Virus record (IMG/VR): IMGVR_UViG_3300046460_000428
Coordinates: 1 to 35,758 of that record
Strand: one strand, 5' to 3'
Source: a virus
Length of the DNA stretch: 35,758 bases
Positions 24,436-28,146 of the stretch are shown piece by piece. Every line of letters begins with the position of its first letter. Position 1 is the first letter of the stretch. A program made the position numbers and the translations under genes. Below the pieces are notes generated by a model. It made no database searches and had not been told where the DNA came from. It saw nothing but the letters and a program-made list of their open reading frames with translations.

Positions 24436-24912
24436 TCATTCGCCTCGACGCGACTTTGACGCAACTTTGACGCAGGCTTGAGGTAAGTTACCCCGACGAA
24501 CGGGATGGGCACGGGCGACCCCCATGCGCGCCATCAAGATCACCATCACTTGCTGATGTAGTGCATGCACCCAATTGCGATAGGTGCGGTCGGCGCCTTC
24601 CGCCAAGCCAATCTCCTGCATCTGTTGGCGCACCGGTACGCTATGGCCATAACGCAGTCGAGCTAGGCTCGCTAACTTCAGCCCACGTTCGTCGCGGTGC
24701 TCAAGCTCCATGATGGCTGCGTCTACCTGGGCGGCGGCGTAGTCCATCCCTGAACCGCCACCGATGAGCGGCCGAGTCCCAGGCGTTCCACGTGGTGCGC
24801 TGCCTTTCCAATCCATGATTGTGCCCATCTGGCTGCCCAAGCTGGCCTCATGGCCGTACTGGCCCAACTGCTCGCCCCAATGCCGCATCAAGCTCTCGAT
24901 ATCGTCAATCAT
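24436..24912 (-). CDS. Q-like late antitermination protein
   Basis: A 158-residue protein. IDDIESLMRHWGEQLG at the N-terminus, MDYAAAQVDAAIMELE in the middle, and RYGHSVPVRQQMQEIGLAEGADRTYRNWVHALHQQVM (a helix-turn-helix-like segment) follow the pattern of phage antitermination protein Q (the 82/21-like type). The start is ATG 24912, with a GGGGGA site upstream. Its position, last in the early operon and directly before the late terminator and holin, is the classic Q position. It overlaps the upstream 111-residue ORF as ATGA, so translation of that ORF probably controls it. Confidence 0.7.
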   Translation of the reverse strand: MIDDIESLMRHWGEQLGQYGHEASLGSQMGTIMDWKGSAPRGTPGTRPLIGGGSGMDYAAAQVDAAIMELEHRDERGLKLASLARLRYGHSVPVRQQMQEIGLAEGADRTYRNWVHALHQQVMVILMARMGVARAHPVRRGNLPQACVKVASKSRRGE

Positions 24913-25244
24913 CCCTGAATCCCCCCGGAAACCGAACCCAACACAAAAAACACCCAGCCCAACACAAACCAAACACAAACAAAACCCTTTAAAATCAATA
25001 GCTTCAATCGATCTGTGTTTAGTGTGTTGGGTTTGTTGGGTATTTCTGTCCTCGCATGAAGAAAATAAATAGCCATCAGAAACCGACTCTCTAACGTCAC
25101 GCATGCGCGCACGCGTAGCGAAACCCAACACACCCGACACAAAGCCGGCAAACCGCTGAAAAATAAGGCTCCAGTCTGTGTGGGGTATCTGAAATCAACC
25201 CAACACACACCCGACACACCCAACACACTTTTAGTTGTAGTCAT
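24909..25244 (-). CDS. unrecognised 111-residue ORF with VLG/CWV repeats, coupled to primase and Q
   Basis: The ATG at 25244 overlaps the primase stop codon as ATGA and the TGA at 24909-24911 overlaps the Q-like ATG, so the frame fits exactly between its neighbours. The protein starts MTTTKSVLGVSGVCWVDF, repeats RVCWVSL near residue 37, and ends with hydrophobic LKGFVCVWFVLGWVFFVLGSVSGG. The VLG/CWV segments are the translation of the DNA nonamer TGTGTYGGG, read in more than one frame, so the DNA or RNA repeat may be the conserved part. I do not recognise a family. There is no independent ribosome site. It may be a real small protein or a translated leader that couples and regulates Q. Confidence 0.5.
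   Translation of the reverse strand: MTTTKSVLGVSGVCWVDFRYPTQTGALFFSGLPALCRVCWVSLRVRACVTLESRFLMAIYFLHARTEIPNKPNTLNTDRLKLLILKGFVCVWFVLGWVFFVLGSVSGGIQG
24937..25227. repeat. eight CCCRACACA nonamers (iteron-like)
   Basis: Copies read on the + strand: 24937-24945, 24958-24966, 25124-25132, 25133-25141, 25199-25207, 25210-25218, 25219-25227; one inverted copy (TGTGTTGGG) at 25023-25031. Two pairs are directly abutted with no spacer (25124-25141 and 25210-25227). Six have A and two have G at the fourth base. The array lies immediately after the primase-helicase gene, so replication iterons are possible; RNA structure is the alternative. Confidence 0.8.
24958..25031 (-). promoter_or_regulatory. long stem-loop upstream of the Q-like gene
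   Basis: In leftward RNA, 25031-25014 (CCCAACACA then CUAAACACA) pairs with 24977-24958 (UGUGUUUGG, two unpaired U, UGUGUUGGG): two 9-bp helices with one G-U pair and a 2-base bulge, around a 36-base loop. The 5' arm could equally pair with the upstream UGUGUYGGG copies, so mutually exclusive structures are possible 46 bases before the Q-like start codon. Confidence 0.6.
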
Positions 25245-27943
25245 GCGGCTGCCGCCTTGATGTGGTCCCAGCTGTCCACATGCCAACCCGCAAGCTTCGC
25301 TTTGGCCCGCCAGTTTTCGACCTGCTTGCCCAGCTCGGCCGCCTTCAGTGATGGGGGCGGGGAAGCGTCCTGATCAACGGGAAAGAAGAACGCACCAAAG
25401 CGCCGGTTGTTGCCATCGGTCCAGGGAATGGCACGCGTCTTATCGACCTCGGAGCTGATGAACAGAGAGAACTTCGTCTGACTCATCACATGCTCTTTAT
25501 TGCGCTGGCACCATTCGAGGAACAGCGAATAGAGGTCGGTTGACAGACACGGCCCCCAAAGTCCGTGACCCAATTCGCTGTACTTCCACAGATGCAAGAA
25601 CGTCTGCCACCCGGCCCGACTCAAGGCCACCAAGCGCTCACGCGCATCCGTCGACGGCGGTCGCGTCCTCTGGTTGAAGTCACCCAGATCGACCGACAAC
25701 AACCAGCCGTACAGCGCCGCGACCCCGCCCTGCTCCAGCTCTCTACCGATCGCCTTTTGCCGCTCGACTGGCAAAGTCTCCATAGGCCACATCACCAGCA
25801 TCCGCCGGTCACTTTCGCTGATTGGCCACGGCAAGATTTCGTTGCTCAGGAACACCGCGTTCATGTGGTTGGCTTCCTCCCAACCGTTGATGAACTTCGA
25901 TTCCATCCGCACCGTCTTGCCGGTGATCAGGTGCTTGATCTTGCCCACCTGGTTGTATCGCTGATCGCGGCTGACAACCTCTTCGAACACGGACCACAAC
26001 TTGCGGCTTTGCCAGGCGTTGAAGTTGCTCTCCAACTGCGTCTGGCCAACCGTGGCAGCGTACTGGCCATACAGCATGCCCAACGCATCGGCGAACAGCA
26101 GGCTTTTACCCGAGCCCTCCATGATCGAGTGCATCAGCACGGCGGTGTCCATCTTGGCGCCCAGGTGCTGCAACGGGTACGCCAACCAACGGATCAGCCA
26201 TTGAGCCGCCGCTTCGTCGTGGTTGCACAAAAAGGAAATCAGCCAACGCAGATTGGTGCAGGCTTCGTCATCCCGGATTGGCTCGAGCGGCAGACCATCA
26301 AAGGTATTGATGTACACGGCAGGGTCTTTGCTCATGGTCGGATCAAACACGATGTGTTCGACATCCACTGTGCGCCGCTCACTACTGTTGAGCCACAGCG
26401 GATAGGTGTCGCCGAGCGCCATCTTCACCGCGCCTTCGGCAATACGCCGCTTTTTCTCCCGATCCCAAACATCCTTGGTCCCGTCGATGTACACATAACG
26501 GTCGGTCGGTGGCATACCCAACGCCCCGCCCTTCTTGCTCGCCATCCGCCGTGCTTGCTCGATATCGCGGACGTGATCATCCGCAATCAACCGTTTGTCC
26601 ATGTCATCCAGCCACGCTTTGGCCAGAGGCTTGCCCACACGCGCTTCAAATGCGGCCTTCTTCATCACCCGTGACTGGTCGCAATCCCACACTTGCGTGG
26701 TGCCCTCGACCAGCGCAAAGCGACGCAGCACCTGGTCAAGCGTCAATGCCTCCCCCGCGCCCCCGTCAGTAGCCGGAGCAGCCTCACTGAGCGCGCCAGA
26801 ACCAACTCGGCTTGGCCCGCTCGGCTCAGCAGATGGGGTTGGGGGAAGATCACGCGCGTCTGGAGCCGATGAATGCTGCATACCCAACATACGCGCCGCA
26901 GCCTTGACCGCTTGGGACTGATCACCGCCGTGCTCGAGTAAGCAGAACACCTCAAAGGCATCGTTCTGATGCCCGTTGGCCAGCGGATCAGCTCCGTGGT
27001 GCGAATATACCCTCCCCTCGTCGCTCACCGTGATGCCCGGTAAGCCCGTACTGCTTTGAGGATAAAGCCACTTGCTACCGCGTTTGATATAGCCATGGCT
27101 GCGCAGCAGCTCTTGCACATCATGGCCGCGATTGAACTCATCGATCACTGAGGGCTGCTTGCCCTTCACCGGCGCCGGCCGAATGATCGGCTTGCCCGGC
27201 GCGAGAGCCAGTTTCGGCGCCCACGGGCAAGCGGCCTCGGCGTCACGCTTGAAGGCGTCCCAGTTGTTCCAGATTGCCAGCAGTTCGGGAGTGAGCTCTG
27301 GCAACCCATCAGCAGCACTTGGTGGCGTGCGCCAGGTGTACGGTTTCCCTGTACCTGGGTGAATCGAAGGTGGTAACACGTCCTGAACCAAGCCGCCGCG
27401 CAGTTCAAACACTGTGATGCGCTGGTACTCCTCAGCCTCGGCACGCGCCTCAGCTTCGCCAGCTACATCACCCGCGTCCTTGGCTGCTTTGATCTTGGCA
27501 GTCAGCGCCTTGTGGATCGAACCGTCGGGATCCTTCTCGTTGGGCCACGCCAATGAGTGGCGGGTCAGCTCAACGCCCTCTGGAACTCGAAACATGATGC
27601 GGAATCGCGCCGGGTTGCCGACCACAGTCGGGAACACCAGCGCCATAGCATCCAGATCGATTTCCAGCTGGTCATAAAGAACATGCCGAGTCCACTGCAC
27701 ATCATCGACGTCCAGAGAGCAGATTCGACTAGGGCCAAGCACCACCCCGAGGTTGTGCTCAGGCTTCTTTTGCCAGAGCTCAACCGCCTTCGCCGCGTCC
27801 GTGATGTATCCTCCGGGCTTGTTCCAACCCCTGCCCTTCGGCCCCTTCTCCCCAGGCTCGATTGGAACCAGGGCCAAGCCGAAGGTATCTATGTAGCGTC
27901 TTGCCCACTCAGCAGTGGGCATTCCATTGCTCGGATCACTCAT
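25241..27943 (-). CDS. replicative primase-helicase (prim-pol + DUF5906 helicase)
   Basis: A 900-residue protein. The N-terminus (residues 10-210) is a bifunctional primase/polymerase (AEP) domain: ARRYIDTFGLALVPIEPGEKGPKGRGW, then GVVLGPSRICSLDVDD with the metal-binding acids at 78-80, and later VFELRGG. The C-terminal half is a D5/DUF5906-like superfamily 3 helicase: IRWLAYPLQHLGAKMDTAVLMHSIMEGSGKS (Walker A 610-614), LWSVFEEVVSRDQ (Walker B), FINGWEEANHMNAVFLSNEILPWPISESDRRMLVM (sensor segment). It should unwind and prime the phage origin. The start at ATG 27943 overlaps the DksA-like stop codon as ATGA; in-frame residues upstream are unlike the family. Confidence 0.92.
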   Translation of the reverse strand: MSDPSNGMPTAEWARRYIDTFGLALVPIEPGEKGPKGRGWNKPGGYITDAAKAVELWQKKPEHNLGVVLGPSRICSLDVDDVQWTRHVLYDQLEIDLDAMALVFPTVVGNPARFRIMFRVPEGVELTRHSLAWPNEKDPDGSIHKALTAKIKAAKDAGDVAGEAEARAEAEEYQRITVFELRGGLVQDVLPPSIHPGTGKPYTWRTPPSAADGLPELTPELLAIWNNWDAFKRDAEAACPWAPKLALAPGKPIIRPAPVKGKQPSVIDEFNRGHDVQELLRSHGYIKRGSKWLYPQSSTGLPGITVSDEGRVYSHHGADPLANGHQNDAFEVFCLLEHGGDQSQAVKAAARMLGMQHSSAPDARDLPPTPSAEPSGPSRVGSGALSEAAPATDGGAGEALTLDQVLRRFALVEGTTQVWDCDQSRVMKKAAFEARVGKPLAKAWLDDMDKRLIADDHVRDIEQARRMASKKGGALGMPPTDRYVYIDGTKDVWDREKKRRIAEGAVKMALGDTYPLWLNSSERRTVDVEHIVFDPTMSKDPAVYINTFDGLPLEPIRDDEACTNLRWLISFLCNHDEAAAQWLIRWLAYPLQHLGAKMDTAVLMHSIMEGSGKSLLFADALGMLYGQYAATVGQTQLESNFNAWQSRKLWSVFEEVVSRDQRYNQVGKIKHLITGKTVRMESKFINGWEEANHMNAVFLSNEILPWPISESDRRMLVMWPMETLPVERQKAIGRELEQGGVAALYGWLLSVDLGDFNQRTRPPSTDARERLVALSRAGWQTFLHLWKYSELGHGLWGPCLSTDLYSLFLEWCQRNKEHVMSQTKFSLFISSEVDKTRAIPWTDGNNRRFGAFFFPVDQDASPPPSLKAAELGKQVENWRAKAKLAGWHVDSWDHIKAAAA

Positions 27944-28146
27944 CTGCGCCGCTCCCGCAACTCCTGGCAGCTGACACAGGTTTCGCAACCTGAAATGGTC
28001 TGCTGGCGAAGCAACGGGATGGGCTCATCGCAATCATCACAGAACTGCGCACTAACTCGATTCGTCGGCACCTGCCGACTCCGATGGATAGCCATGTCGA
28101 GTAAGTATTGCGCCTGGTCGTTGGCGCGGTCGATTTCATCAGCCAT
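27940..28146 (-). CDS. TraR/DksA-type C4 zinc finger protein
   Basis: A 68-residue protein with CDDC (Cys36, Cys39) and CVSC (Cys57, Cys60), a 17-residue spacer, an extra Cys54, and the helix ADEIDRANDQAQYLLDMAIHRSRQ at the start. This is the short TraR-like form of DksA without the long coiled coil. Such proteins bind in the RNA polymerase secondary channel and can shift promoter choice. It overlaps the CII-like gene by 8 bases and the primase by 4. Confidence 0.88.
   Translation of the reverse strand: MADEIDRANDQAQYLLDMAIHRSRQVPTNRVSAQFCDDCDEPIPLLRQQTISGCETCVSCQELRERRR

Follow-up and report, generated by a model that had tools for sequence, protein, structure and literature searches.

A stop-free reading frame laid over a putative iteron origin beside a phage Prim-Pol/DUF5906 primase gene

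Immediately 3' of its replication primase gene this phage carries a 336-nt minus-strand open frame that is packed with short repeats and tied to both neighbouring genes by ATGA overlaps, which raises the question of what the repeats are for and why the DNA that holds them should be open to translation. The window, that is, the whole stretch of DNA that was analysed, is 35.8 kb long (35,758 nucleotides) and is the entire virus record. The original prediction, made from the letters alone, offered two answers: the repeats are iterons of a phage origin lying next to the primase, or the frame is a translated leader on which ribosome movement selects RNA structures and so times a Q-like gene. The frame and its surroundings are laid out as follows.

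25241..27988, minus strand: 915-aa Prim-Pol/DUF5906 (SF3-type helicase) primase for replication; candidate for binding the iterons
25241..25244, minus strand: ATGA join of the primase stop and the gap-frame start (seen in relatives)
24909..25244, minus strand: stop-free, amino-acid-neutral bridge frame of 111 codons over the putative origin (from stops, shuffle and omega)
24909..24912, minus strand: ATGA join of the gap-frame stop and the next gene's start (seen in relatives)
24436..24912, minus strand: downstream gene called Q-like, 158 aa, phrog_4300 (function unknown; match at 5e-46)

Counting bears out the repeats as first described. The nonamer TGTGTYGGG occurs eight times in the window, seven times on the minus strand and once inverted, and all eight copies fall within 24937-25227; shuffled windows hold 0.94 copies on average and at most 3. 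At least three near copies (24969-24977, 25032-25040 and 25177-25185) lie among them. The two ATGA joins of the 111-aa frame (25244..24909), at the primase stop and at the next start, stood up equally well. The boxes, numbered by their position in the gap that follows the primase, and the other elements of the array are these.

25219..25227, minus strand: iteron box 18, TGTGTTGGG (motif count and conserved position in relatives)
25210..25218, minus strand: iteron box 27, TGTGTCGGG (motif count and conserved position)
25199..25207, minus strand: iteron box 38, TGTGTTGGG (motif count and conserved position)
25177..25185, plus strand: inverted variant box 60, TGTGTGGGG, in relatives CCCNACACA (near copy and relatives)
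25133..25141, minus strand: iteron box 104, TGTGTCGGG (motif count and conserved position)
25124..25132, minus strand: iteron box 113, TGTGTTGGG, almost invariant (motif count and conserved position)
25098..25117, no strand: alternating purine-pyrimidine tract of 20 nt, TACGCGTGCGCGCATGCGTG (longest alternating run in relatives)
25046..25057, minus strand: conserved non-iteron motif ATGCGAGGACAG (alignment of relatives)
25032..25040, plus strand: inverted variant box 205, TTTGTTGGG (near copy and alignment)
25023..25031, plus strand: inverted iteron box 214, TGTGTTGGG (motif count and conserved position)
25014..25022, plus strand: degenerate inverted box 223, TGTGTTTAG (alignment)
24945..25104, no strand: AT-rich island at gap positions 141-300, where the DNA may melt (AT in 20-nt bins)
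24969..24977, minus strand: iteron box 268, TGTGTTTGG here and TGTGTTGGG in most relatives (near copy and relatives)
24958..24966, minus strand: iteron box 279, TGTGTTGGG (motif count and conserved position)
24937..24945, minus strand: iteron box 300, TGTGTTGGG (motif count and conserved position)

Whether this arrangement matters to the phage can be read from its relatives. Searches with the primase gave 80 viral loci and 71 loci in bacterial genomes, and in nearly all of them 325-345 nt, most commonly exactly 328, separate the primase stop from the next gene. Across 131 distinct gaps the boxes keep fixed positions at 18, 27, 38, 60 (inverted), 104, 113, 205 (inverted), 214 (inverted), 268, 279 and 300, and their spacing and orientation are conserved as well (about 130 distinct relatives). 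In the alignment the boxes, the alternating tract (CGCGCATGCG / CGCGCGCGCATGCG) and the ATGCGAGGACAG motif stand out as conserved islands amid variable sequence. The longest alternating run of the gap falls at the tract in 130/131 relatives, with a median length of 18 nt against a mean of 8.8 in composition shuffles; at 18-20 nt in relatives, the tract is also of a kind prone to form Z-DNA. The array shows two features of an iteron-type origin, namely multiple short repeats at fixed spacing and, alongside them, an AT-rich region that could melt, whose 20-nt bins average 56-71% AT over 75 relatives, the flanks having mostly 24-53%. GC skew, tried as a further origin signal, was uninformative because gene direction confounds it.

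Distant relatives retain the same geometry with different iterons, among them CTAGGGT in Azotobacter, GTGCAGGG in Marinobacter, TGTGCAGGG in Hahella, GGCCTAGGG in Oceanobacter, GTGCGGG in Stenotrophomonas phage S1 and TGTCTGA in a Halomonas phage, besides GGCCTAGG, TCCGGCC, TATACAGGG, TGACCGGG and more. An alternating tract adjoins the core boxes in most of these other iteron lineages too. Among the distant relatives examined, Moraxella phage Mcat7 showed no clear iteron array. The ATGCGAGGACAG-type motif is recognisable in several lineages despite wholly changed iterons, usually after a run of T, and a CGCGAGG-like form of it lies downstream of the primase in four loci (L147, L149, L150 and L151).

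If the iterons can be exchanged while the layout stays, something that reads them may be expected to change with them, and the primase is a candidate. It matches Pfam PF09250 (7e-20) and PF19263 (1e-17) as well as the DNA primase family phrog_1156 (8e-134), and its residues 556-733 match the NrS-1 primase chains 6k9c/6k9e (E 1e-9). An AlphaFold2 (AF2) model of its C-terminal 190 residues, with a mean pLDDT of 84, contains a helix-helix-strand-strand element of winged-helix type, entered here as follows.

25373..25573, minus strand: predicted winged-helix-like domain, primase residues ~806-872, probable iteron reader (AF2 and co-divergence)

Foldseek searches with this model gave a best E of 0.2 and thus none that is significant, the top matches including the Cdc6/Orc1 winged helix and the RFX DNA-binding domain; a Pox_D5 match, itself sub-threshold, appears in 61/71 members, and the window's own primase falls below the cut-off. 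When pairs of primases of matched overall identity are compared, those with different iterons are more divergent over most of residues 766-885. Over residues 806-872 identity is below expectation in 11/11 comparisons between different-iteron groups, and in a window scan of the primase residues 831-870 are negative in 25/25 such comparisons, the sequence pairs in both counts not being independent of one another. The deficit over residues 806-872 is smallest where the iterons are nearly equal (-0.02 for TGTGTYGGG vs TGTGTCAGG, -0.01 for GACTAGGGT vs TGTCTAGGG) and amounts to -0.31 for GTGCAGGG vs TACAGGG. Fold and co-divergence together are suggestive, and not proof, of a C-terminal winged helix that reads the iterons. 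Residues 551-590, which directly precede the helicase core, form a second region whose divergence follows the iteron (22/22 comparisons) and which may touch the core of the origin. The box set is unchanged beside primases whose N-terminal half is different and whose match covers only residues 368-915; it therefore goes with the helicase and the C-terminal half. In Pseudomonas phage Turba (L153, 2977-5705) the annotation splits the primase into two overlapping genes, one for the Prim-Pol half and one for the helicase half. The ~79-kb records PQ533662 and PQ533659 (phages Presto and Meadow), which may be larger phages or doubled assemblies, carry a primase close to that of the 42-45-kb relatives. 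A search for plasmids with a close relative of the primase returned only matches of 23-38% identity.

These observations also bear on a different reading of the boxes, namely that they serve a regulator of the operon's transcription as operators and are not an origin. Repeats clustered between genes can indeed have that role, and genes for CII-like and HTH regulators lie nearby. However, the array stays with the C-terminal half of the primase and changes as its C-terminal domain changes, a search of the region found no promoter-like site, and the size of the array, the AT island and the facing pairs of boxes resemble the origins of PrimPol replicons, PICIs and satellites (PMC6092414, PMC4234260). 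We regard operators as quite improbable. The iteron hypothesis, in turn, gains support from the conserved box geometry, from the same layout built with other iterons and from the co-divergence of the primase C-terminus.

An iteron origin could lie in DNA that is closed to translation, and the second half of the question is therefore why this one is open. In the relatives frame 0 has no stop in 79/79 distinct gaps of equal length, while the other five frames have ~2.5 to 7 stops per sequence. One could suppose that the frame is open by chance, owing to base composition or to repeats poor in stops, as the repeats contain no stop in frame 0. When each alignment column was permuted among the 77 sequences with ATGA or GTGA ends, which keeps the boxes and the composition of every column, frame 0 acquired 60-94 stops (77 expected) against 0 observed, and frames 1 and 2 showed no depletion; a second family of loci, described below, has 0 stops where 10-27 would occur. 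An accident is exceedingly unlikely. The stop argument is made from the tips of the tree and the column shuffles because parsimony counts of nonsense changes include artefacts of site-by-site ancestral states.

The frame is thus free of stops, as a protein-coding gene would be, and its amino acids appear free to vary. Outside the boxes, variation is equal at codon positions 1, 2 and 3 (0.33, 0.34 and 0.32), and tree-based omega is 1.10 for the gap frame, whereas on the same tree the final 333 nt of the primase give 0.25 and the beginning of the next gene 0.32, so that purifying selection on amino acids is not seen. If the frame encoded a small functional protein indifferent to most substitutions, for example a hydrophobic peptide, with the repeats incidental to it, this would account for the avoided stops and for the two ATGA joins, and the peptide of the TGTGTYGGG-type (Pseudomonas) loci is mildly hydrophobic (GRAVY 0.34). 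Against this stand the omega of ~1.1 and the equal variation at the three codon positions outside the boxes; the peptide has no recognisable protein or family match among Pfam, PHROG and NCBIfam profiles, the frame of the second family differs from it in both sequence and hydropathy, and shifts of frame at the 3' end are tolerated provided that the stop still meets the next start. We hold a small protein to be unlikely. With no stops and neutral amino acids, the frame appears to be selected for the passage of ribosomes rather than for the peptide.

What selection does seem to watch over is the two ends. The primase-side ATGA is present in 198/199 distinct TGTGTYGGG-type loci, and in this group the final primase codon always ends in CA (GCA, rarely ACA), by which the ATGA is formed, with the preceding alanine codon varying freely. 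At the other end the frame overlaps or abuts the start of a frame of at least 90 aa in 181/181 open distinct relatives, compared with 5.7% at random positions in the gap. Where the gap length is 2 modulo 3, the next gene carries ATTGA in 20/22 cases vs 18/95 (p 3e-10), and the one-base shift in length is thereby met by a stop at +8. Repeats, inverted copy and ATGA joins are accordingly all conserved in the relatives, as the original prediction would have it, and the avoidance of stops upholds its idea that translation of the frame matters.

A second, independent case at the level of sequence is the bridge of the Stenotrophomonas phage S1 type. Here the primase is only ~35% identical to that of the window, the iteron is GTGCGGG, and the gene after the gap in the S1 record is that for the terminase small subunit. 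The gaps are open in 61/61 distinct loci, with 0 stops vs 18 expected (range 10-27); omega is 0.97 for the gap frame vs 0.16 for the primase, and the frame's end overlaps a start in 60/60. The peptide, which the S1 record annotates as gp2, a hypothetical protein, is unlike the TGTGTYGGG-type peptide in sequence and has a mean hydropathy of -0.14.

Exceptions occur. Ten of the 199 distinct TGTGTYGGG-type loci are not open across 300 nt, and two related species with variant boxes (L115 and L136) have an early stop in common, so the bridge can be lost. In two interrupted loci (L054 and L097) a frame beginning at an alternative start, position 17, runs precisely up to the next gene, and in two others (L004 and L025) the gap frame reads through into the next gene. 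One-base shifts in the latter pair put the bridge in frame with the downstream gene, giving a long fusion frame of 813-816 nt that may be real or an assembly error, and in phage Turba the bridge ends at a stop at 255 nt. Neither the open frame nor the ATGA is present in most other iteron lineages that share the origin geometry, which makes the frame an addition that the origin does not need.

The other answer first offered was an attenuator: ribosome movement on the leader would pick between alternative RNA hairpins and so time the Q-like gene downstream. In its favour, copies on either side offer pairing partners to the inverted ones, and the frame is selected to stay open. The downstream stem put forward (25019-25040/24958-24979) exists and lies 46 nt before the next start, but it is only 73% complementary over 22 nt, and stronger pairings exist in the gap. 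Covariation was scored for three pairings on 41 relatives. The proposed stem forms in 62% of cells, with covariation no higher than in shuffles, and 11 of its 22 pairs depart solely by unpaired cells, so that half of them are mostly unpaired. The upstream pairing is a stronger stem, paired in 91% because both of its arms are iterons, and its covariation is likewise not above shuffles; an alternative downstream pairing of 19 pairs owes its excess to a single pair. Opposite the invariant A of box 214 there is a C in 25/73 cases at box 279 and in 27/69 at box 300, and this T/C switch is uncompensated. A search of the gap found neither an intrinsic terminator nor an Rfam match, mir-375 at E 0.14 being below gathering and taken as chance. 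Conserved alternative base pairing, which an attenuator or leader peptide would call for, is therefore not seen, and the substitutions show neither constraint on the protein (omega 1.10) nor compensatory support for the base pairs. We consider the attenuator very improbable. Nor do neutral amino acids suit a leader peptide that times Q; the signature fits ribosome transit and coupling instead.

The name of the gene to be timed is an unproven guess. Its best assignment is phrog_4300; it has no Pfam match, and its match to the PA0613 family (NF051483, 3.9e-5) is below the cut-off of that model. The label is helped only by a Halomonas relative that is annotated as an antitermination protein. A TraR/DksA-like zinc finger (27940-28146) and the PA0613-like protein (24436-24912) flank the primase-origin cassette. 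The R/F pyocin locus of P. aeruginosa has ptrB, PA0613 and a holin in a row with no known primase among them, much as though it lacked the replication cassette.

Taken together, the evidence from sequence makes it probable that the gap is the replication origin of the Prim-Pol/DUF5906 module and that ribosomes cross it. The nonamer iterons would be bound by the winged helix predicted in the C-terminal part of the primase-helicase. The facing pairs 104/113 and 205/214 flank a core that holds the alternating CG tract, and they adjoin the AT-rich island. By analogy with described systems (PMC6092414, PMC4234260, PMC8718748, PMC7102993), the bound primase would load helicase rings, two of them set head to head at the core, melt the AT island and prime. 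Ribosomes that finish the primase would restart at the overlapping ATG, make a peptide of indifferent sequence, stop atop the next start codon and restart there, and in this way 330 nt of origin RNA that otherwise codes for nothing would be bridged, and the next gene's expression tied to that of the primase. Translation may guard the origin RNA against Rho-dependent termination, R-loops or hairpins. The benefit may lie in equal dosage, in shielding from Rho or in keeping the G-rich transcript out of R-loops, and the sequence does not distinguish among these. We hold it more likely than not, with somewhat less assurance than for this explanation as a whole, that the frame is a kind of 'ghost gene' over a phage origin, selected only for a restart codon, for the absence of internal stops and for a stop on the next start, and that it arose at least twice, over different origin types and before different downstream genes.

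The Prim-Pol/DUF5906 phages would thereby gain a recognisable origin of constant layout and interchangeable iterons, and the family with swapped iterons is a natural set in which to study the joint change of an initiator and its DNA site. The frame would be one maintained for translation itself and not for its product. Gene finders label such frames hypothetical proteins, in Stenotrophomonas phage S1 as gp2, and dN/dS, the usual test of coding potential, would class them as non-coding; neither captures the point. Whether translation protects or regulates a replication origin becomes a directly testable question. A search of open-licence full texts found no earlier description of this origin family or of the frame, and earlier descriptions may exist elsewhere.

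Several known systems share parts of this design. In the P4 alpha and crr system a primase-helicase binds short iterons through its C-terminal domain, as is proposed here for the candidate reader; the match of the window's primase to NCBIfam TIGR01613 is sub-threshold, however, and the sequence and layout of the iterons differ. In bacteriophage lambda the origin lies inside gene O. Its iterons too are found in transcribed, translated DNA (PMC3985674) beside an initiator function. They lie in a real protein gene, whereas the frame that overlies the array described here shows no protein constraint. The NrS-1 PrimPol, the closest solved relative of the helicase region of the window's primase (6k9c/6k9e), is a phage enzyme that primes sequence-specifically at TTTGGTTA or GTG; the NrS-1 genome has just two 8-nt sites and no such array, and the Tail domain of the enzyme is described as a novel fold (PMC8718748, PMC7102993).

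The replicon of pRN1 ORF904 also combines a PrimPol, an SF3 helicase and a winged helix (a predicted one in the phage) with an essential cis region just downstream of orf904, and similar stem-loops have been reported for some phages (PMC4234260). Its origin, however, is a roughly 100-nt stem-loop and not an iteron array, no overlying reading frame is described, and a large conserved stem-loop 3' of the phage primase gene finds no compensatory support. The closest likeness in layout is to the rep-ori of PICI/SaPI elements, in which the origin lies directly 3' of the primase/initiator gene (pri-rep), two sets of iterons flank an AT-rich region and iteron sequences vary between elements (PMC6092414), all of which the putative origin in the gap shares. 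Those elements are satellites without virion genes of their own, while the window belongs to an ordinary temperate phage with a Prim-Pol/DUF5906 protein: inspection of the frames in the 35.8-kb record finds portal- and terminase-like genes downstream, and related records annotate terminase and capsid genes. The gap differs further in its extra conserved parts, the alternating CG tract and the distal boxes, and in the stop-free frame over the origin. An iteron origin beside an initiator gene is of a known kind; the new element is a frame that appears to be kept open over the origin for translation alone, and that in two separate families.
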